Source: Desulfobacula sp. (lineage in GTDB: Bacteria > Desulfobacterota > Desulfobacteria > Desulfobacterales > Desulfobacteraceae). Taken from it: a stretch of DNA of 15,939 bases. The notes below the pieces were generated by a model that searched no databases, had not been told where the DNA came from, and saw only the letters and a list, made by a program, of their open reading frames with translations. Where the stretch lies: positions 1 to 15,939 of the forward strand of contig JAOZRI010000018.1 of assembly GCA_029940235.1 (NCBI GenBank). Reading direction: 5' to 3'. Positions within the stretch are counted from its first letter, which is position 1. Each line of letters begins with the position of its first letter. The position numbers and the translations under genes were made by a program. Shown piece after piece: positions 3,588-15,674 of this stretch.

Positions 3588-5988
3588 GGCAAAAAAAACT
3601 AAAGCACAAATTTTAAAACTCAGAAATAAAAAAAAGCAAAAAAATATTATCCTTGTTTTTTTTAAATGGCTTTTTATTCTTTTCATTATATCAGGTATTC
3701 TTGGTTTTGCTGGCATTTTTGGATTCTATTACTATTTAACCCAGGATTTACCCAAAATAAGCTCTTTAAAAGATTACCGTCCTGCCACTGTTACCAGTGT
3801 GTTCTCCGATGATGGAAGAAAAATAGGTGAGTTCTATAAACAGAGAAGAATTGTTATTCCATTATCAAGCATGCCGGATAATTTAATTAAGGCTTTTGTG
3901 GCTGCAGAAGATTCAAGATTCAGGGAGCATCCCGGTATTGATATGGCTTCCATAGTCAGGGCATTTATAAAAAATTTTAAAGCCGGCACCATTGTCCAGG
4001 GAGGTTCAACCATTACCCAGCAGGTTACAAAATCATTTTTACTGACCCCGGAACGGACATATGAGCGAAAATTTAAAGAGGCAATCCTTGCATATAGAAT
4101 TGAAAAAAAATTCACAAAAGATGAAATTCTTTATCTCTATCTAAACCAGATATATCTTGGACATGGGGCATATGGGGTGGAAGCCGCCTCGGAGAATTAT
4201 TTTGGAAAACATGTAAAAGATCTTAATCTTGCTGAATGTTCAATGCTGGCAGGTCTGCCCCAGGCTCCAAGCAGATATTCCCCCTTTAGATTTCCAAAAA
4301 GAGCAAAACAGCGACAGATTTATGTTCTTAACCGCATGAAGGAAGATGGTCATATTTCAAATCTTGAGGTTACAGATGCCATAGAGCTCAAACTTGATAT
4401 CCAACCGCGCAAGAACTGGTTCATAGAAAGAGTACCCTGTTATACCGAGCATGTCAGAAGATATGTCCAAAAACACTATGGTGAGGATGCCTTGTATACT
4501 CAGGGACTTCAGATCCACACAGCAGTTAATATTGAACTGCAGAAGATTGGAAGAAATGCAGTCAACAGAGGTTTGATGGAACTTGACAAACGAACAGGTT
4601 ATCGAGGTCCTTTAAAAAATATTTCTGCTCTTCAGGTGGAAGATTTTTGTGACAAAATATCAGAAAAAATCGGAAATCAATTATTAGAAAAAGGGAAAAT
4701 TTATCAGGGTGTAGTGAGCAATATTGATGATGAAAAGGGTATAACCACTATAAGAGTTGGTGATTTTACAGGTGTTATAAAGCTTGAAACCATGACATGG
4801 GCAAGAAAACCTGACCATGAGATTGCCTATTATGAAATCAAAGTAAAAAAGCCCTCCCATGTTTTTAAATCCGGGGATATTATTGAGGTAAAATTACTAA
4901 ATGATATTGTTGAAGAGAATGAACTTGAATTTTTTCTCTATCAGGAACCTGTGGCACAGTCTGCATTATTGAGTATTGAAGCTGAAACCGGTCATGTTAA
5001 AACAATGATTGGTGGGCGTGATTACAGGGACAGCCAGTTTAACAGGGCATATCAATCAAGACGTCAGCCGGGAAGTGCTTTTAAACCAATTATTTATGCT
5101 GCAGCACTTGACAAGGGATATACGGCTGCAAGTGTTATTATAGATTCTCCTGTTGTTTATAAAGATATAGAGCGTGATTTTATCTGGAAGCCCCGTAATT
5201 ACAAAGAGGAATTTTTTGGCCCAACTCTGTTTCGAAAAGCCCTTGTAAAATCAAGAAATATTGTTACCATTAAAATTCTTAAGGATATTGGAATAGATTA
5301 TACCATTGATTACGCACGTAAAATGGGTATTACATCCAATATCAGCCGGGATCTTTCCATTGCACTTGGATCATCCGGGCTTTCTCTATTGGAAATTGTC
5401 AATGCCTACTCTGTGTTTTCTAATCTGGGTTATTTGATTGAGCCTGTATTTATTACAAAAATCTATGACAGGGACGGCAAACTGCTTGAGACTTCAAAAT
5501 TGATTCGCAAAAAAGTGGTTGATATGAGTACGGCCTATATCATGACAAATATCTTAGAAAGTGTGGTACAATCAGGGACAGGCTGGAGAATTAAGGCCCT
5601 TAAACGCCCGGTTGCAGGCAAAACAGGTACGACAAATAATCTTTTTGATGCCTGGTTTCTGGGATATACACCAAGATATACAACAGGTGTGTGGGTTGGA
5701 CTTGACCAGGAAGCCCCCCTTGGTAAATCAGAAACAGGATCAAGGGCAGCAAGCCCTATCTGGCTTGATTTTATGCAAAATACCCTGGAGGGAAAACCTG
5801 CAAGAACTTTTAATGTGCCCGAGGGTATTGTGTTTGCAAAAATTGATGCTAAAACTGGATTGCTTCCCATAAAAGAGTCGGAAAAAACAATCTTTGAATG
5901 CTTTAAAGAGGGTACTGTGCCCTTTGAACACACTCCAAAGCCAGACACAGCATCTGATTCTGATGAATTATTTAAAGAAGGAATTTAA
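3586..5988 (+). CDS. mrcA: Class A penicillin-binding protein (PBP1A type): peptidoglycan glycosyltransferase/transpeptidase
   Basis: Bifunctional murein synthase, 800 residues from the ATG at 3586 (a GTG at 3580 would add two), anchored by one N-terminal membrane helix (about 21-50) after a Lys-rich cytoplasmic tail. Glycosyltransferase family 51 follows: AAEDSRFREHPG with catalytic Glu108, QGGSTITQQ (138-146), RKFKEA, and KDEILYLYLNQIYLG (178-192). A linker/OB-like region (about 330-450) precedes the transpeptidase, with PGSAFKP (Ser497, Lys500), SRN (556-558) and KTGTT (679-683). All active-site motifs are intact and the length is normal for PBP1A. It lies about 100 bases after the EAL-HDOD gene with no obvious terminator, so read-through is possible. 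Its stop codon overlaps the convergent radical SAM stop by four bases. mrcA is used as the general class A name; which paralogue it is cannot be told. Confidence 0.95.
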   Translation: MAKKTKAQILKLRNKKKQKNIILVFFKWLFILFIISGILGFAGIFGFYYYLTQDLPKISSLKDYRPATVTSVFSDDGRKIGEFYKQRRIVIPLSSMPDNLIKAFVAAEDSRFREHPGIDMASIVRAFIKNFKAGTIVQGGSTITQQVTKSFLLTPERTYERKFKEAILAYRIEKKFTKDEILYLYLNQIYLGHGAYGVEAASENYFGKHVKDLNLAECSMLAGLPQAPSRYSPFRFPKRAKQRQIYVLNRMKEDGHISNLEVTDAIELKLDIQPRKNWFIERVPCYTEHVRRYVQKHYGEDALYTQGLQIHTAVNIELQKIGRNAVNRGLMELDKRTGYRGPLKNISALQVEDFCDKISEKIGNQLLEKGKIYQGVVSNIDDEKGITTIRVGDFTGVIKLETMTWARKPDHEIAYYEIKVKKPSHVFKSGDIIEVKLLNDIVEENELEFFLYQEPVAQSALLSIEAETGHVKTMIGGRDYRDSQFNRAYQSRRQPGSAFKPIIYAAALDKGYTAASVIIDSPVVYKDIERDFIWKPRNYKEEFFGPTLFRKALVKSRNIVTIKILKDIGIDYTIDYARKMGITSNISRDLSIALGSSGLSLLEIVNAYSVFSNLGYLIEPVFITKIYDRDGKLLETSKLIRKKVVDMSTAYIMTNILESVVQSGTGWRIKALKRPVAGKTGTTNNLFDAWFLGYTPRYTTGVWVGLDQEAPLGKSETGSRAASPIWLDFMQNTLEGKPARTFNVPEGIVFAKIDAKTGLLPIKESEKTIFECFKEGTVPFEHTPKPDTASDSDELFKEGI

Positions 5989-7067
5989 TTGTCAAAAGTC
6001 TTAGCAGACCTTGGAAGTTTTTCCCAACAACTAAACGGTTTAATATCCACACAATTTTTATTTTGTATTGTATTACCTGAATCAATCAAGAAATCAATCT
6101 TTGGATAACGTGATTTAAGTTTTTTTAGATTACTGTTTTTATCACCCCGTAAGCGTGACTCTGATCTATGATGCACATTTAAAATCAGGCTTTTTGTTTT
6201 TAGTAGTTCAGGACTTTGATCTATTTTTCTGCAAATCATATCATAAAAAATTTGAGAAAAGACAAGATGTCCAAATGCTGGGTGCCATGGACCTGCAAGA
6301 ACCATGGATTGATCTTCCATCATATCCGAGGCCTGCAGCCCCATACGAATAACATCAATATTGTCAGCTTGAAAGATTTGATACATCTTTTTGACAAGTT
6401 TGACACTCTCTTCAAGGGTCAAGGGTTTATATAGACCCTTTTTATACCACTGTTCCATGGGGCTGCCTTTGAGCACCATCAAAGGATAAATCCTTGCAAA
6501 GTCCGGGGCAAGTTTTGCCAATTTATGTGTGCTTTTAAGCAGTGAACTCTCACTGTCATCTGGCAGTCCAACCATGACCTGGACACCGATCTTAAATGAA
6601 TAATCCTTAAGAAGGCCTATTGCTTTTATTGTATCCCCGGCAGTATGGCCTCTTTTTGACTTTAATAAAATCTCATCATTCATGGATTGAACACCAAGTT
6701 CAATGGCAGATATTGTATAAGGTTTGAGAAGGTCAAGGGTTTGTGGATTAATGGTGTCCGGTCTTGTGGAAAACCTTATGCCATGAATTTTATTTTCAGA
6801 GATATAGGTATTCACTATTTCAAGCAATTCGATAATGGTTTTATGTGGTAATCCCAGAAAATTACCTCCAAAAAAGGCGAGTTCTACGCTTTCCCGCTTT
6901 CCTTTATATTGGAGATATTGTGTTATAATATCATTAATCTGATATTTGTCGGGCAGGTTGGATTTTTGATTTGTAATAATGGACTGATTACAGAATGCAC
7001 ATTGATGGGGGCACCCTGAATGGGGAATAAATATTGGAATCACCAATGGTTTGCATCTTTTATTCAT
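5985..7067 (-). CDS. Radical SAM protein, Elp3 N-terminal-like
   Basis: A 360-residue radical SAM enzyme. PHSGCPHQCAFCNQ holds the [4Fe-4S]-binding Cys19, Cys23 and Cys26 (CxxxCxxC), and AFFGGNFLGL is the GGE-like glycine motif used for SAM binding. FSTRPDTI and ELGVQSMNDEIL are typical of the Elp3/HemN-like radical SAM core. There is no C-terminal acetyltransferase domain as in true Elp3, so the specific reaction is unknown; tRNA or other RNA modification is only a guess from family. Stand-alone proteins of this style are, to my knowledge, often next to rnc in clostridia, and here it lies 66 bases downstream of the RNase III fusion. No good ribosome binding site precedes the ATG at 7067, the only plausible start. 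Its stop overlaps the stop of the convergent PBP gene. Confidence 0.85.
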   Translation of the reverse strand: MNKRCKPLVIPIFIPHSGCPHQCAFCNQSIITNQKSNLPDKYQINDIITQYLQYKGKRESVELAFFGGNFLGLPHKTIIELLEIVNTYISENKIHGIRFSTRPDTINPQTLDLLKPYTISAIELGVQSMNDEILLKSKRGHTAGDTIKAIGLLKDYSFKIGVQVMVGLPDDSESSLLKSTHKLAKLAPDFARIYPLMVLKGSPMEQWYKKGLYKPLTLEESVKLVKKMYQIFQADNIDVIRMGLQASDMMEDQSMVLAGPWHPAFGHLVFSQIFYDMICRKIDQSPELLKTKSLILNVHHRSESRLRGDKNSNLKKLKSRYPKIDFLIDSGNTIQNKNCVDIKPFSCWEKLPRSAKTFDN

Positions 7068-7133: not shown

Positions 7134-8696
7134 TCAGGATAATTGTTTATCAAGCATTTTCAAGCTTTTTTTTGCAGCATCCTGCTCTGCTGCTTTCTTA
7201 TTTTTTCCAAGACCTGTTACGTCAACACCCAAAATGCTTAGACTGATCTCAAAGGTTTTATCATGATCTGGACCAATTTCATTAATGACTTTATATTGTG
7301 GCGTTGTGGTTGTTTTGTCCTGGACTAATTCTTGTAACAGGCTCTTATAATCAACGATTTTTATAGTAGATAAAAGTTTTTCAAGACGTCTATTGAAAAG
7401 CTCATGGATCAGTTGATATACTTTTTTATAGCCTGTATCAAGATAAACCGCTGCAATAACAGCTTCAAAGGCATCTGATAAAATGGAGTTTTTTTCAAAA
7501 CCTCTGGAAATCATTTCTCCCTTGCCAAGCTTTAAAAATCTGCCAAGGTCTATGGATCTTGCCATATCAGCAAGGGCTGGTTCACTGACAAGATTGGATC
7601 TTAATTTTGAAAGTTCCCCTTCGTTTTTAGAGGGGCTTTTTTTCATCAAAAGGTGCCCTATGCAAAGCCCTAATACTGCATCACCAAGGAATTCAAGGCG
7701 CTCATTATTATTTTGGCATGAATTCTGGTTTTCATTTAAAAATGATCTGTGACAAAGGGCAGTGTTTAACAGTGATTTATCTTTAAATGAATATTGGATA
7801 TATTTTTCTAAGGTATCTAAATTTGCATATTTTTCTTTATTCTCTTCCATGCGCATAATTAATGCTTTAAACAGTGAATAATCTATATTGAGATTGCCAA
7901 TGCCTGTTCCAAGGGCAACACCTTTATTGAATTCGCCATGAAAATCAGACCCCCCTGTGGCAAGCAGATTTTTTTTGTGGGCAAGTTTTTCATAAAAAGA
8001 TGTCAAAGGAGCATCATGCCCTGTATAATAAACTTCCATGCCTGTAAGCCCATGGGTGATCAGGGTATCAATAAACTCTTCAAGTTGATGGCTTGTATTA
8101 AAATTCAGCAGCCCGGGATGTGCAAGAACTGGAATGCCACCGGCTTCAAGAATTGTTGTGATGGCCTTTGAACAGGAGACTTTGTGTTTTTCAACATAGG
8201 CAGGTTTGCCTTTACCAAGATACTTATCAAAAGCCTCTTTAAAATTTTTGACATACCCTTTTTCTTTCATAAGTTCTGCTATATGCGGGCGGCCGGTCTG
8301 CTTGGCACCAAAGCGTTCTTCAACCTGTTCAATTGTTAAATTAAATCCAAGGTTGTTTAATTTTTCTATAATGGCAGGATTTCTTTGAAGTCTTGCTTTT
8401 TTTGCTTTATTTAGAATGGCATTAATATTTTTATCATAAATACTGAATCCGTATCCAAGAAGATGAATACTTCCCAGGTGCTTAAAATTTACAGGGGGTT
8501 CGCAGGAAATTTCTACCCCGCAAATAATTTCCAGAACATTGGATTGTGAATACTTTAAGATTTTTTTGACACCATCTATGGTATCATGATCAGTTATGGA
8601 AATAGCTTGGAGTTTTGTTTTTTTTGCAAGATTTATAATTTCAATGGGAGAAAAAGACCCATCTGAAGCTGTTGAATGTATGTGAAGATCAATCAA
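7134..8696 (-). CDS. rnc: PHP phosphoesterase (YciV/RNase AM-like) fused to ribonuclease III
   Basis: One uninterrupted 520-residue ORF carries two full-length enzymes. Residues 1-282 are a PHP domain of the YciV/TrpH type (E. coli YciV is 293 aa). It shows HIH (5-7), TDHDT (36-40), Glu62, His79, GRPHIA (135-140), AHPG (192-195) and GGSDFHG (248-254), the complete trinuclear metal-site pattern. About ten linker residues later, 294-440 is RNase III: NERLEFLGDA (331-340) with Glu332, Glu335 and Asp339, and SDAFEAVIAAVYLD with Asp408 and Glu411. A dsRNA-binding domain follows (about 448-517, with GPDHDK and KKAAEQDAAKK). RNase III matures rRNA and cuts dsRNA; the PHP family includes 5'->3' exoribonuclease RNase AM and pAp-type phosphatases. 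The start is TTG at 8696, since no in-frame ATG or GTG lies between it and the dksA stop codon and the PHP fold begins at once. The gap from dksA is 39 bases. The function of the fusion is inferred. Confidence 0.93.
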   Translation of the reverse strand: MIDLHIHSTASDGSFSPIEIINLAKKTKLQAISITDHDTIDGVKKILKYSQSNVLEIICGVEISCEPPVNFKHLGSIHLLGYGFSIYDKNINAILNKAKKARLQRNPAIIEKLNNLGFNLTIEQVEERFGAKQTGRPHIAELMKEKGYVKNFKEAFDKYLGKGKPAYVEKHKVSCSKAITTILEAGGIPVLAHPGLLNFNTSHQLEEFIDTLITHGLTGMEVYYTGHDAPLTSFYEKLAHKKNLLATGGSDFHGEFNKGVALGTGIGNLNIDYSLFKALIMRMEENKEKYANLDTLEKYIQYSFKDKSLLNTALCHRSFLNENQNSCQNNNERLEFLGDAVLGLCIGHLLMKKSPSKNEGELSKLRSNLVSEPALADMARSIDLGRFLKLGKGEMISRGFEKNSILSDAFEAVIAAVYLDTGYKKVYQLIHELFNRRLEKLLSTIKIVDYKSLLQELVQDKTTTTPQYKVINEIGPDHDKTFEISLSILGVDVTGLGKNKKAAEQDAAKKSLKMLDKQLS

Positions 8697-8735: not shown

Positions 8736-9098
8736 TTAAATACCAAGAGCCTTTTCCATGTCCTCTTCGCGTTTTTTACATTCAATGCACTGGGTAGTGA
8801 CAGGCCTTGCCTTAAGCCGCTGGAGAGAAATTTCCTCTTCACATGTTTCACATATTCCAAATGATCCGTTGTCAATGCGGACAATGGTTTTTTTGATTTT
8901 TTTGATAAGTTTATGTTCTCTGTCCCTGATTCGAAGCTCAAAACTCCTGTTGGATTCGTGGGAAGCTCTGTCAGTTGGGTCAGGAAAATTTTCTTTTTGT
9001 TTTGTCATGCCGGTTACAGTAGTGTCAGCACGGGAAAGCAGTTCCTGCAGCCTGTCAGTTAAAAGATTTTTAAAAAATTCCAAATCTTTCTTTTTCAT
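8736..9098 (-). CDS. dksA: DksA/TraR-family RNA polymerase-binding regulator
   Basis: Binds the RNA polymerase secondary channel and, with ppGpp, adjusts rRNA and other promoters in the stringent response. At 120 residues it is shorter than E. coli DksA (151) but has the essential parts. The coiled-coil tip FPDPTDRASHE holds the two aspartates (Asp40, Asp43) matching the acidic tip of DksA, and ELRIRDRE continues the helix. The C4 zinc finger has Cys83, Cys86, Cys104 and Cys107. AAAGGT lies upstream of the ATG. It is followed after 39 bases by the PHP-RNase III fusion on the same strand and probably co-transcribed with it. The antisense ORF of similar length over this gene is a shadow. The length leaves open a DksA-like paralogue rather than the main DksA. 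Confidence 0.9.
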   Translation of the reverse strand: MKKKDLEFFKNLLTDRLQELLSRADTTVTGMTKQKENFPDPTDRASHESNRSFELRIRDREHKLIKKIKKTIVRIDNGSFGICETCEEEISLQRLKARPVTTQCIECKKREEDMEKALGI

Positions 9099-12306: not shown

Positions 12307-14829
12307 TTGAGTCATAGAAAAATAGTATCACTTCTAGCCATTGTTTTATTGTTCATCTTTACTGTTTTTTTGTTTTTCTATGAAAGTTATGCTCACAATG
12401 GTGCACAATCCCGTATTGATGAACATGCTCATATTGTAGCAGAAGCACTCTGGAATTATAATCCTCAGGGCACTTCTGAATATCTATACCTCGCCTCTAA
12501 ATCACAAAACTATCAACAGATTGTCATTACAGATACCAATGAAAAAATATTTCATAAAACCATTGGGGAAGATCCTGCTCGGATTGAGAGTCTGTTGATC
12601 TCTCTTAATCTTATCAGCCAAAAACATCTGACATCAGATATCATCTATGAAGGGAAAAAAATTGGCAGAATTGATGCAGTGTGGAGCTGTGATACCATAT
12701 ATTTTGAGCTTTTTATCCTCCTGGTTCTAATCATGATATATACGATTCTCCATCTTATTTCCCAGATATTATATTCTAAAAAATCGTTGGAAAATGATGT
12801 TGCAGGACATACAAAAGAGCTATATGGCTTAAATTCTGTGCTGAAATTAGAAGTTAAAGAGCATAAACAGGCAAGGCAGGCTTTAATGAAAAGCCAAGAA
12901 TTATACCGCCTGATTGCAGAAAATGCCACAGATGTAATATGGATGACTGATATGGATTTTAATTTTACTTATATCAGTCCTTCAACTTTTCAAATGGGTG
13001 GATTTACTCAAGAGGAAATGCTGGCAAAAACTCTGGACAAAACTGTATTGCCAGATTCACTGGAAAAGCTTGTAGATTTCTACGAAAAAACATTAAATTT
13101 GATAAAGGTCGGTGACCCTGAGGGCTGGGAATCAAAAATTATTGAAGTACAAGAGTATTGCAAGAATGGCAGCACAATTGATACTGAAATAAATGCAAGA
13201 ATTTTTGCTGATGATGATAATAAGCCTGCAGGCATACTGGGAATAACCCGTGATATTACCCATCAAAAATTGATGGAAAAAAAGCTGACAGAGAGTGAAA
13301 AAAAATATAGAAATATCCTTAGCAATATGGATGATGGCTATTTTGAAGTAGATCTTGCAGGAAGTTTTACCTTTTTCAATAATTCCATGTGCAGGATGCT
13401 TGGATATCCAGGCGATGAATTAATGGGAACCAATAATCAGGAATACATGGATAAAGAAAATGCTAACAAGATTTTTCAAACTTTTAATAAAGTGTATAAA
13501 ACAGATGTACCAACCAAAGCACTTGACTGGAAATTGATAAAAAAAGATGGCTCAATCTGTTTTATTGAAACCGTTGTATCTTTGATAAAAAATTCAGAAG
13601 GTAAGAAAATTGGTTTTAGAGGTATTGCCAGGGATATAAGCGACAGAATAAAAGCTGAGCAGGAAAAAAATAAAGCCCAGCAATTTGCCATAGAACAGGA
13701 AAAGCATGCACTGGTGGGTCAGATTGCTGGAAAAATGGCCCATGATTTTAATAATATTCTGGGTATAATTATGGGCAATGCCCAGGTTGCGCTTATGGGC
13801 ACCAGGGAGTTAGAAACAAAAAAGACCCTTGAGTTGATTTTTAAACAGACCATACGGGGGAGAGATCTAACAAAAAACCTGGTTATTTTTGCCAAAGATC
13901 AGGAACCAAAGCAGGAATTTTTTAAAATTAATGAAAAACTCGATCTTGTTATTGATCTGCTTAAAAAGGATCTGGAAGGTATTGAGATTATAAAAGAATA
14001 CAGGCCTGGTGTGCCGGAAATGCTTGCTGATTCAGGAATGATTGAACATGCCCTGGTAAACATTTTGCAAAATTCAATTCATGCAATGGGTATGGTTGAA
14101 CATCCTTTAATTACTATTCGAACATACAGTATTGATGACAATATCACCCTTGAGATTGAAGATAACGGATGCGGCATTTTAAAAGAACATCTTGAAAAAA
14201 TTTATAAACCTTATTTCTCCCTTAAAGGAAGCAGAGATGCAAAAGGTTCATATAAAACAGGTATTAAAGGAACCGGTTATGGTATGGCCAATGTTAAAAA
14301 ATATATCCAACAGCATAAAGGCATAATTTTGGTTGAATCTGAATTTGGCTCAGGTACAAAAGTTACAATAAACATACCTGTCACTAAAAAAGAGTTAACC
14401 ATTGATGAGAAAAAGAAAACTCAGAAGAAGATAACACAATATGAAAAATATATTCTTCTCGTTGAAGATGAAATTGCCATCGCAGAAGTGCAATATGCAG
14501 TATTAACACAGGCTCCCTGTAATCATAAAGTTGATACAGCCAATAATGGGCAGGCTGCAATGGATTTGTTTGACACAAATCAATACGATTTTGTAAGTCT
14601 GGATTATATTCTTTATGGAGACTACAATGGTATGGATGTGTATCACCACATCAGAAAAACCGATAAAACCATTCCAATATTGTTTGTATCTGGTAATATA
14701 GAGTTTTTAGAATCCATAGAAAATTTAAAACAGGAAGATACCAATATTGACCATCTGTCCAAACCATGCCCTAATAAAGATTATGTGACCTGTATAAATG
14801 AATTGCTGGAAAGGAGCCATACCCCATGA
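12307..14829 (+). CDS. Hybrid sensor histidine kinase (2 TM, 2 PAS, HisKA, HATPase, REC)
   Basis: An 840-residue inner-membrane kinase. A membrane helix (about 7-25), an extracytoplasmic sensor region of about 100 residues I do not recognise, and a second helix (132-154) lead to a coiled linker and two PAS domains (about 198-320 and 332-447), each ending in a TRDIT or ARDIS junction. The H-box is GQIAGKMAHDFNNILG with phospho-acceptor His479. The ATPase has NILQNS (585-590), EDNGCGI (618-624) and GTGYGM (655-660). The C-terminal receiver has acidic VEDE (719-722), phospho-acceptor Asp766, Ser795 and Lys819. There is no DNA-binding output domain, so a separate phosphotransfer protein or regulator is implied. 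Start is TTG at 12307, with AAGGGG six bases upstream and a membrane helix beginning at once. The stop overlaps the next gene as ATGA. Confidence 0.93.
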   Translation: MSHRKIVSLLAIVLLFIFTVFLFFYESYAHNGAQSRIDEHAHIVAEALWNYNPQGTSEYLYLASKSQNYQQIVITDTNEKIFHKTIGEDPARIESLLISLNLISQKHLTSDIIYEGKKIGRIDAVWSCDTIYFELFILLVLIMIYTILHLISQILYSKKSLENDVAGHTKELYGLNSVLKLEVKEHKQARQALMKSQELYRLIAENATDVIWMTDMDFNFTYISPSTFQMGGFTQEEMLAKTLDKTVLPDSLEKLVDFYEKTLNLIKVGDPEGWESKIIEVQEYCKNGSTIDTEINARIFADDDNKPAGILGITRDITHQKLMEKKLTESEKKYRNILSNMDDGYFEVDLAGSFTFFNNSMCRMLGYPGDELMGTNNQEYMDKENANKIFQTFNKVYKTDVPTKALDWKLIKKDGSICFIETVVSLIKNSEGKKIGFRGIARDISDRIKAEQEKNKAQQFAIEQEKHALVGQIAGKMAHDFNNILGIIMGNAQVALMGTRELETKKTLELIFKQTIRGRDLTKNLVIFAKDQEPKQEFFKINEKLDLVIDLLKKDLEGIEIIKEYRPGVPEMLADSGMIEHALVNILQNSIHAMGMVEHPLITIRTYSIDDNITLEIEDNGCGILKEHLEKIYKPYFSLKGSRDAKGSYKTGIKGTGYGMANVKKYIQQHKGIILVESEFGSGTKVTINIPVTKKELTIDEKKKTQKKITQYEKYILLVEDEIAIAEVQYAVLTQAPCNHKVDTANNGQAAMDLFDTNQYDFVSLDYILYGDYNGMDVYHHIRKTDKTIPILFVSGNIEFLESIENLKQEDTNIDHLSKPCPNKDYVTCINELLERSHTP

Positions 14830-15674
14830 TTATTGATTCACATACACATATTTTTCCTGAAAAAATTAAACAGGACCGATCTTTATATTTTAATAATGAA
14901 CCTGAATTTCAACTGCTTTATGATTCACCAAAGGCAGCAATTAGCAATATTGAAGATTTGATTGAGACCATGGATAAATTCCAGGTTGATATCTCTGTGA
15001 TTTGTGGATTCCCCTGGCATAATCCTGATTACACAAAATTCAACAATGACATTATTATTGAATCTGCAATAAAATATCCAGACAGGATTAAAGGCCTTGC
15101 CTGTTTTGATGCAGCCTGGGAAGGGGCAGGCAATGAAACCAAAAGATGTATTGATGCAGGGCTTTGCGGTGCAGGTGAACTTGCATTCTATCTGTCCGGA
15201 ATAGATGAACAGGCATTGGCTCTTCTTGATCCTGTCATGTCTGTTTTAAAAGATAATGGCAATCTGCCATGTATGATTCATACCAATGAGCCTGTAGGCC
15301 ATAAATATCCCGGTAAAACACCCGTCACTCTGGAACAGATTTACAATCTTGCAAAGACTTTTCCCGATAATAAAATTATCTTGGCACACTGGGGAGGTGG
15401 AATCTTTTTTTACAATATCATGAAAAAAGAGACAAAAACTGTTTTCAAAAATATCTGGTATGATACTGCGGCATCTCCCTATTTATATGACTCCCATATT
15501 TATGATATTGCCGTTGATGCACAAATTGCAGACAAAGTGCTTTTTGGAACTGATTTTCCTTTGCTCAACCCGGACAGATACTATAAGGATATAGATAATT
15601 CAAATATTACTCCTGATCAAAAAAAACAGATACTTGGCGACAATGCTGCCCTTGTTTTTAACATTGATGAGTGA
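14826..15674 (+). CDS. Amidohydrolase family 2 (ACMSD-like TIM-barrel metal hydrolase/decarboxylase)
   Basis: A 282-residue amidohydrolase_2 protein. Metal-ligand and active-site residues are in order: DSHTH (His6, His8), His152 in CMIHTNE, His188 in LAHWGGG and Asp243 in LFGTDFPL. This is the pattern of zinc-dependent decarboxylases and hydrolases such as ACMSD. The substrate cannot be told. The ATG overlaps the kinase stop as ATGA, with AAGGAG nine bases upstream inside the kinase gene, so translation is coupled and the two are one operon. A metabolic hydrolase tied to a hybrid kinase is uncommon and may mean that the kinase senses a compound the enzyme acts on. The length is normal and no residue is missing. 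Confidence 0.9.
   Translation: MIIDSHTHIFPEKIKQDRSLYFNNEPEFQLLYDSPKAAISNIEDLIETMDKFQVDISVICGFPWHNPDYTKFNNDIIIESAIKYPDRIKGLACFDAAWEGAGNETKRCIDAGLCGAGELAFYLSGIDEQALALLDPVMSVLKDNGNLPCMIHTNEPVGHKYPGKTPVTLEQIYNLAKTFPDNKIILAHWGGGIFFYNIMKKETKTVFKNIWYDTAASPYLYDSHIYDIAVDAQIADKVLFGTDFPLLNPDRYYKDIDNSNITPDQKKQILGDNAALVFNIDE

Follow-up and report, generated by a model that had tools for sequence, protein, structure and literature searches.

The window, the whole 15,939-nucleotide stretch of Desulfobacula sp. DNA analyzed here, comes from a 3.0-Mb draft genome (615 contigs, 78.7% complete). On its minus strand lies a 520-aa open reading frame at 7134..8696, with a TTG start at 8696 and a stop codon at 7134-7136, which is supported by Pfam and NCBIfam matches and by full-length homologues. 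An earlier note on this DNA had proposed one unbroken PHP-RNase III frame at this place, giving no strand; the proposal holds for the minus strand, where the frame has no internal stops, and frame 1 of the plus strand over the same stretch is stop-rich.

The protein begins with a PHP domain of the RNase AM/Cv1693 type (residues 1-275; 7872..8696, minus strand, as are the parts that follow), assigned from Pfam (PF02811, residues 3-142, 48.3 bits against a gathering cutoff of 26.4), NCBIfam, alignment, and Foldseek matches to 9etk and 2yb1. A junction (residues 276-292; 7821..7871) leads into the RNase III catalytic domain (residues 293-444; 7365..7820), identified by Pfam (Ribonucleas_3_3, residues 306-433, 131.8 bits against a cutoff of 35), NCBIfam, alignment, and Foldseek, and a double-stranded RNA-binding domain closes the chain (PF00035, dsrm, residues 450-515; 7152..7349; 55.4 bits against a cutoff of 23). 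The C-terminal part exceeds the curated cutoff of the NCBIfam RNase III model (TIGR02191, 250.6 bits against 166.25), and this fusion is the only RNase III match in the window's genome.

The gene sits between two conserved neighbors on the same strand. Upstream, and separated from the fusion start by 39 bases, is dksA (8736..9098; TIGR02420, 143.2 bits against a cutoff of 115.5); downstream is a gene for a radical SAM protein that resembles MnmL/YtqA and Elp3 at scores below the family cutoffs (5985..7067). The 179 locus records that hold both the PHP and RNase III genes count some genomes twice, and several of the misses among them fall at contig ends; 174 have a same-strand dksA upstream, 169 have the radical SAM gene downstream, and 164 have both. 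Bacterial RNase III genes are known in an rnc-era arrangement; the fusion gene adjoins dksA and the radical SAM gene instead. DksA controls rRNA transcription, so the cluster reads as one for RNA and ribosome supply. In one genome of the order (G047; locus L255, contig C7, 539840-544520), the arrangement is dksA-rnc-radical SAM and nothing between dksA and rnc matches PHP, so that the PHP gene seems dispensable there. Outside the order, at a locus of genome G484 (L254), the radical SAM gene follows rnc, and neither dksA nor PHP is matched; from this locus, the rnc-radical SAM pair may predate the arrival of the PHP gene. Elsewhere in the window, on the plus strand at 14826-15674, a 282-aa ORF beginning MIIDSHTHIFPE has no NCBIfam match at an E value of 0.001; judging by eye, we take it to be amidohydrolase-like.

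Distribution and origin of the fusion

We searched 55 genomes of the window's family of sulfate-reducing bacteria (54 at ≥90% completeness plus the window's own; ten genera) and found one RNase III in each, with the PHP domain in the same frame in all 55, although a contig end cuts the frame in three of them (G014, G096, and G115). Single-contig assemblies account for eight of them (G008, G093, G098, G099, G102, G103, G105, and G106). Full-length fusions in the family are about 50-78% identical to the window protein. A 58-genome search that included the window's own genome gave one-frame matches to both halves throughout the genus and the family; the exceptions are contig-cut copies in G007 and G014, a copy in G026 that is listed in two pieces but lies in one frame, a TAA within the aligned span of G019, which was classified as fused, and G031, which is 70% complete and has no RNase III match. 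Named genomes were scanned as well, and the fusion is present in Desulfobacula, Desulfotignum, Desulfobacter, Desulfospira, and Desulfamplus, with the cultured isolates Desulfobacter vibrioformis DSM 8776, Desulfobacter latus AcRS2, and Desulfospira joergensenii DSM 10085 among the carriers. Because full-length fusions recur across many independent genomes, single-contig genomes and cultured isolates among them, a chance ORF or a misassembly is ruled out. No re-split fusion was seen among the 55 family genomes. We conclude that the fusion is fixed in the family, as the sole RNase III found there.

The search of the order covered 242 genomes, 187 of them outside the family. Sequence-checked fusions were found in 13 of the 187 (G062, G063, G074, G077, G078, G079, G136, G138, G181, G182, G209, G211, and G212). 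By far the most common state is a pair of adjacent but separate PHP and RNase III genes, present in 149 genomes (75 established from sequence and 74 from coordinates, with a gap of −200 to 1000 bases). The two genes lie on different contigs in 12 genomes, several of them of genus g40, and far apart in one; four genomes have only the PHP match, five have only the RNase III match, and three have no match at 1e-30. The earlier note had named relatives that always carry two genes as grounds for doubting the fusion; instead, the family is fused, and in most other genomes of the order the two genes are neighbors.

Beyond the order, the search that the earlier note had suggested across Desulfobacterota found the architecture only within it: no fusion was seen among the matches listed for about 374 other genomes of the phylum. 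That sample comprised 394 genomes, of which 20 are listed as belonging to the order and 7 are unlisted, with their kinship not shown; the matches listed reach ∼1e-60, and within the order no fusion that forms a single row scores worse than 8e-117, but a fusion split into two rows could escape. Three genomes (G341, G422, and G273) were considered as carriers outside the order, since they have long frames around the PHP match; no rnc was present in the stretch examined. In a plasmid collection, 84 records were matched, but no single place in any of them covered 80% of the protein.

Since no fusions were seen outside the order among the matches listed, separate genes are probably the older state. 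A phylogenetic tree of the quick kind was built from 115 PHP and RNase III pairs. The family contributes 24 fused representatives, picked from its fused records; the remaining 91 are all the other loci in which both halves are present, 13 fused and 78 separate, with two of the separate ones drawn from genomes less than 90% complete. Two of its rows, L171 and L180, are long. The label fused or separate requires 8 changes on this tree, at least 5 of them forced by the starred branches, a count that does not by itself distinguish gain from loss. A single ancient origin of all fusions, with the 37 fused rows as one clade, was rejected on the same quick tree (p-AU, 3.6e-7). The fusion thus appears to have arisen more than once in the order. 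Its recurrence is weaker evidence than it would be for unlinked genes, because adjacency makes fusion little more than the loss of a stop codon.

This cheapness bears on a null explanation, that the two genes are coexpressed for unrelated reasons and that, once a stop codon was lost, the fusion was tolerated without functional coupling. The 149 of 187 genomes with adjacent unfused genes fit it, as do the 47 of those 149 pairs that share a frame, often with a single stop between the genes, and the fact that only 13 of the 187 genomes went on to fuse. The same-frame pairs comprise 41 of the 75 taken from sequence, which were picked with a preference for same-frame genes, and 6 of the 74 taken from coordinates, which were checked for stops, so only the total is meaningful. 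That total is close to the third expected by chance and gives no support to programmed read-through in these pairs. Against tolerance without coupling stand the presence of the fusion in 55 of 55 family genomes across ten genera, with no re-split copies, and its repeated origin, and we regard this explanation as unlikely. We conclude that the PHP-RNase III fusion is a real, conserved, and repeatedly evolved protein, a new combination of two known enzymes.

Active sites of the two halves and their junction

The residues that the earlier note had listed, both for the PHP metal site and for RNase III, are all present in the protein. The metal-site residues of the PHP half are H5, H7, D12, H37, E62, H78, H193, D251, and H253. 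For comparison, PMC9410882 gives the metal ligands of Escherichia coli RNase AM as His13, Asp20, His45, Glu72, His83, His198, Asp255, and His257; these align to H5, D12, H37, E62, H78, H193, D251, and H253 of the window protein, which thus has a complete three-metal site, and H7, which is absent from the ligands named there, is placed by alignment only. The same source describes a 5′-phosphate pocket of Arg107, Arg110, and Arg141 with a base-stacking Phe161. The equivalents R102, R105, R136, and F156 occur in every covering row of the 77 distinct fused sequences compared, of which the family and its kin supply 64 and other genomes 13, and they are likewise kept in all 37 fused and all 78 separate rows of the order. 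Where covered, metal ligands and pocket are conserved throughout the 77 sequences except for F at H37 and V at H78, both in L066, whose match starts only at residue 108, beyond these deviant positions.

One position departs from RNase AM. In the E. coli enzyme, Arg201 contacts a sulfate that marks the phosphate site (PMC9410882). Its equivalent is L196 in the window and L, I, S, or F in 62, 11, 3, and 1 of the 77 fused sequences, so the fused proteins lack this salt bridge; no Arg occurs at the column among the 78 separate PHP proteins of the order that were aligned either (L in 67, F in 6, S in 2, I in 1, and a gap in 2). The PHP half scores 164.8 bits with the NCBIfam model for RNase AM/Rnm (NF047791, RNase RNM), against an equivalog cutoff of 375, and is therefore not filed as RNase AM. 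Its best NCBIfam match, at 178.8 bits, is to the 3′,5′-nucleoside bisphosphate phosphatase model (NF041577), whose equivalog cutoff is 400. As judged from alignment, the PHP half thus appears to retain intact RNase AM-type catalytic residues while scoring below both equivalog cutoffs. With RNase AM (YciV; E. coli 7ug9, Vibrio cholerae 9etk), it shares the PHP fold, the eight metal ligands, the three pocket arginines, and the stacking Phe; unlike RNase AM, to which it is 22-27% identical in structural alignments, it carries Leu, Ile, Ser, or Phe for R201 and has an RNase III attached. With the phosphatase Cv1693 (2yb1/2yb4), it has the fold and the kind of pocket in common, but it is 25% identical in the structural alignment and is joined to an endonuclease.

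These affinities leave room for a PHP half that acts as a tethered scavenger or pAp phosphatase and destroys the short 5′-phosphorylated strands and oligonucleotides released by RNase III, or 3′,5′-bisphosphate nucleotides, rather than working on rRNA ends. In its favor, the bisphosphate phosphatase model outscores the RNase RNM model, albeit with both below their cutoffs; Cv1693, solved with AMP and phosphate (2yb1), ranks first by TMt among the PHP structures listed; and PMC9410882 describes the same 5′-phosphate pocket for RNase AM and for the Cv1693-type enzyme. A pure metabolite role, on the other hand, offers no reason for a tether to RNase III, and general needs of this kind might be covered by a second PHP protein of the family, although the pocket of that protein differs in the copies aligned. 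We consider the scavenger role doubtful, if still a serious contender.

The second protein, PHP2, is a stand-alone paralogue of 307 aa (L002, 560-1483, minus strand; genome G000, contig C508) that is 30-37% identical to the PHP half of the fusion. It was found in 53 of the 55 family genomes (not in G012 or G023) and in one of the 187 other genomes of the order (G047). Four aligned copies have Lys at pocket position Arg105 and Ile or Met at Phe156, and with two pocket positions changed, PHP2 is unlikely to be a replacement RNase AM. Because the 13 fused genomes outside the family have no PHP2 among their matches, PHP2 is not a condition of fusion; its correlation with the fusion inside the family may reflect a single event.

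In the RNase III half, the acidic residues E332, E335, D339, D408, and E411 correspond to E38, E41, D45, D114, and E117 of E. coli RNase III. Four of them (E335, D339, D408, and E411) do not vary across the 77 distinct fused sequences, and the E332 column holds E in 68 and Q in 9. Like the RNase III enzymes of E. coli (7r97) and Thermotoga maritima (1o0w), the fusion has complete catalytic and dsRNA-binding domains with these acidic residues; unlike them, its RNase III is preceded by an enzymatic N-terminal part of ∼290 residues and does not begin at a start codon of its own. We estimated dN/dS for 142 of the 666 pairs formed by 37 coding sequences, keeping those with a PHP dS of 0.1 to 1.6 and with all three regions computable. 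The medians are 0.135 for the PHP half, 0.128 for the RNase III half, and 0.246 for the junction, at a median dS of about 1, which is near saturation. Both halves thus appear to keep their catalytic residues and to be under selection.

The D408 column is more variable where the genes are separate: N occurs in 22 and G in 2 of the 78 separate RNase III proteins of the order, against none of the 37 fused rows. The surrounding SILAN..EA motif is otherwise intact in the 12 contexts printed, so that the substitution does not look like a misalignment; the rows are related and not independent.

A single-chain AlphaFold model built from 31 sequences (mean pLDDT, 83.8; pTM, 0.77) places a helix at residues 273-290, at the junction, followed by an RNase III helix at 293-300. 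Segments 1-4, 6-12, 254-260, and 263-266, which contain or flank metal ligands, have pLDDT values below 50. Among the best 50 of 99 Foldseek matches at an E value of 0.001, the PHP half resembles Cv1693 (2yb1; TMt, 0.83) and the RNase AM of V. cholerae (9etk; TMt, 0.76) and of E. coli (7ug9; TMt, 0.68; rmsd, 7.8), and the other half resembles RNase III (7r97; TMt, 0.65); each of these structures covers about one half of the fusion. A few Dicer and Drosha rows within the same best 50 align over 441-457 columns, but with an rmsd of 20-28, too poor to mean anything.

The fusion could still be nominal if a separate RNase III were made from an internal start or by proteolysis. The window junction has in-frame ATG codons at M281 and M283, which might serve as internal starts there, and at least one ATG occurs in 30 of 63 distinct family-type junctions. 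In 15 of the 63, a start codon follows a Shine-Dalgarno-like stretch. Yet 11 of the 63 lack any in-frame ATG, GTG, or TTG, and 22 lack ATG and GTG; our scan found no Shine-Dalgarno-like stretch at the window junction ATGs, and an ATG stands behind one in only 2 of the 63 junctions. This last test is blunt, because a stretch of this kind precedes only 27 of the 78 separate rnc genes. The dN/dS of the junction suggests some selection on it as protein. We regard a separately made RNase III as very improbable.

A putative cut-then-trim enzyme

Both enzymes were known before, and E. coli 23S rRNA precursors are acted on by RNase III as well as by RNase AM (PMC9848016 and PMC10250234). In PMC9757072, RNase J1 and RNase AM are called the only bacterial 5′→3′ exoribonucleases known until that 2022 paper added NrnA. 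What is new is the covalent union, its fixation as the family's sole RNase III, and its repeated appearance; the parts of the open-licence PMC literature covered by our search contain no description of a PHP-RNase III fusion, of such fixation, or of such recurrence. As the only RNase III of a family, the fusion is a natural experiment, in which the dependence of 5′ trimming on the enzyme that opens the end becomes testable through single point mutants in one protein.

The best reading, in our view, is that the fusion is a bifunctional RNA-processing enzyme that cuts and then trims, and we rate its chances as about even. RNase III leaves 5′-phosphates. Following this reading, the C-terminal half would dimerize as an ordinary RNase III and cut double-stranded precursors, above all the long stems of pre-rRNA, leaving 5′-monophosphate ends. 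The short helical junction would keep the N-terminal PHP half on the RNase III dimer, where it would bind the 5′-phosphorylated end in its Arg/Arg/Arg/Phe pocket and remove nucleotides in the 5′→3′ direction with its three-metal site, so that the newly opened end would be trimmed by the same molecule. That the protein dimerizes, that either half is active, that the PHP half works 5′→3′, and that rRNA is the chief substrate are inferences. The architecture suggests that cutting and trimming are joined in one machine.

A more ambitious proposal can be built on this. The fusion may be a maturase in one piece: RNase III would pass a fresh 5′-monophosphate end directly to a tethered 5′→3′ exonuclease, and rRNA 5′ ends would be made in one binding event. 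Such coupling would have been selected several times in Desulfobacterales and would reveal a partnership between RNase III and RNase AM-type enzymes in bacteria generally. We put this forward tentatively, as possible but somewhat doubtful. The fused lineage itself predicts an RNase III/RNase AM partnership, to be sought where the two enzymes are separate.

Several observations speak against the cut-then-trim reading. The PHP half falls below both NCBIfam cutoffs, R201 is replaced in all 77 fused sequences, and the PHP gene can be missing beside rnc, as in G047. Other enzymes could also do the trimming. The earlier note had supposed that the lineage may lack other 5′ exonucleases, which turned out otherwise: the window's genome encodes RNase J (558 bits against a cutoff of 400), as do 37 of 37 good-quality relatives and 53 of 58 genomes searched overall, and RNase E/G is present in 39 of 39 genomes. 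RNase J, the 5′→3′ exonuclease of many bacteria, is an unrelated protein encoded by a separate gene that co-occurs with the fusion and could perform the same trimming. With RNase J and RNase E/G present, the fusion would supplement the other 5′-end enzymes and not replace them. The interpretation offered in the earlier note is thus upheld in its two-domain protein with intact catalytic residues but not in its premise of a shortage of other 5′ exonucleases.

We nevertheless prefer the cut-then-trim reading, partly because of what is known of RNase AM and partly because of the predicted fold of the 23S flanks. According to PMC9410882, E. coli RNase AM degrades a 40-nt 5′-phosphorylated RNA processively, and in PMC9848016, both ends of the p23S that RNase III releases are trimmed, and RNase AM is depicted as a trimmer. 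In two genomes of the family (G093 and G105), folding of the pre-23S flanks gives a single long leader-trailer helix, as expected, a result obtained with no shuffle control. In another locus, L240, a short 23S match coincides with 2500 masked bases.
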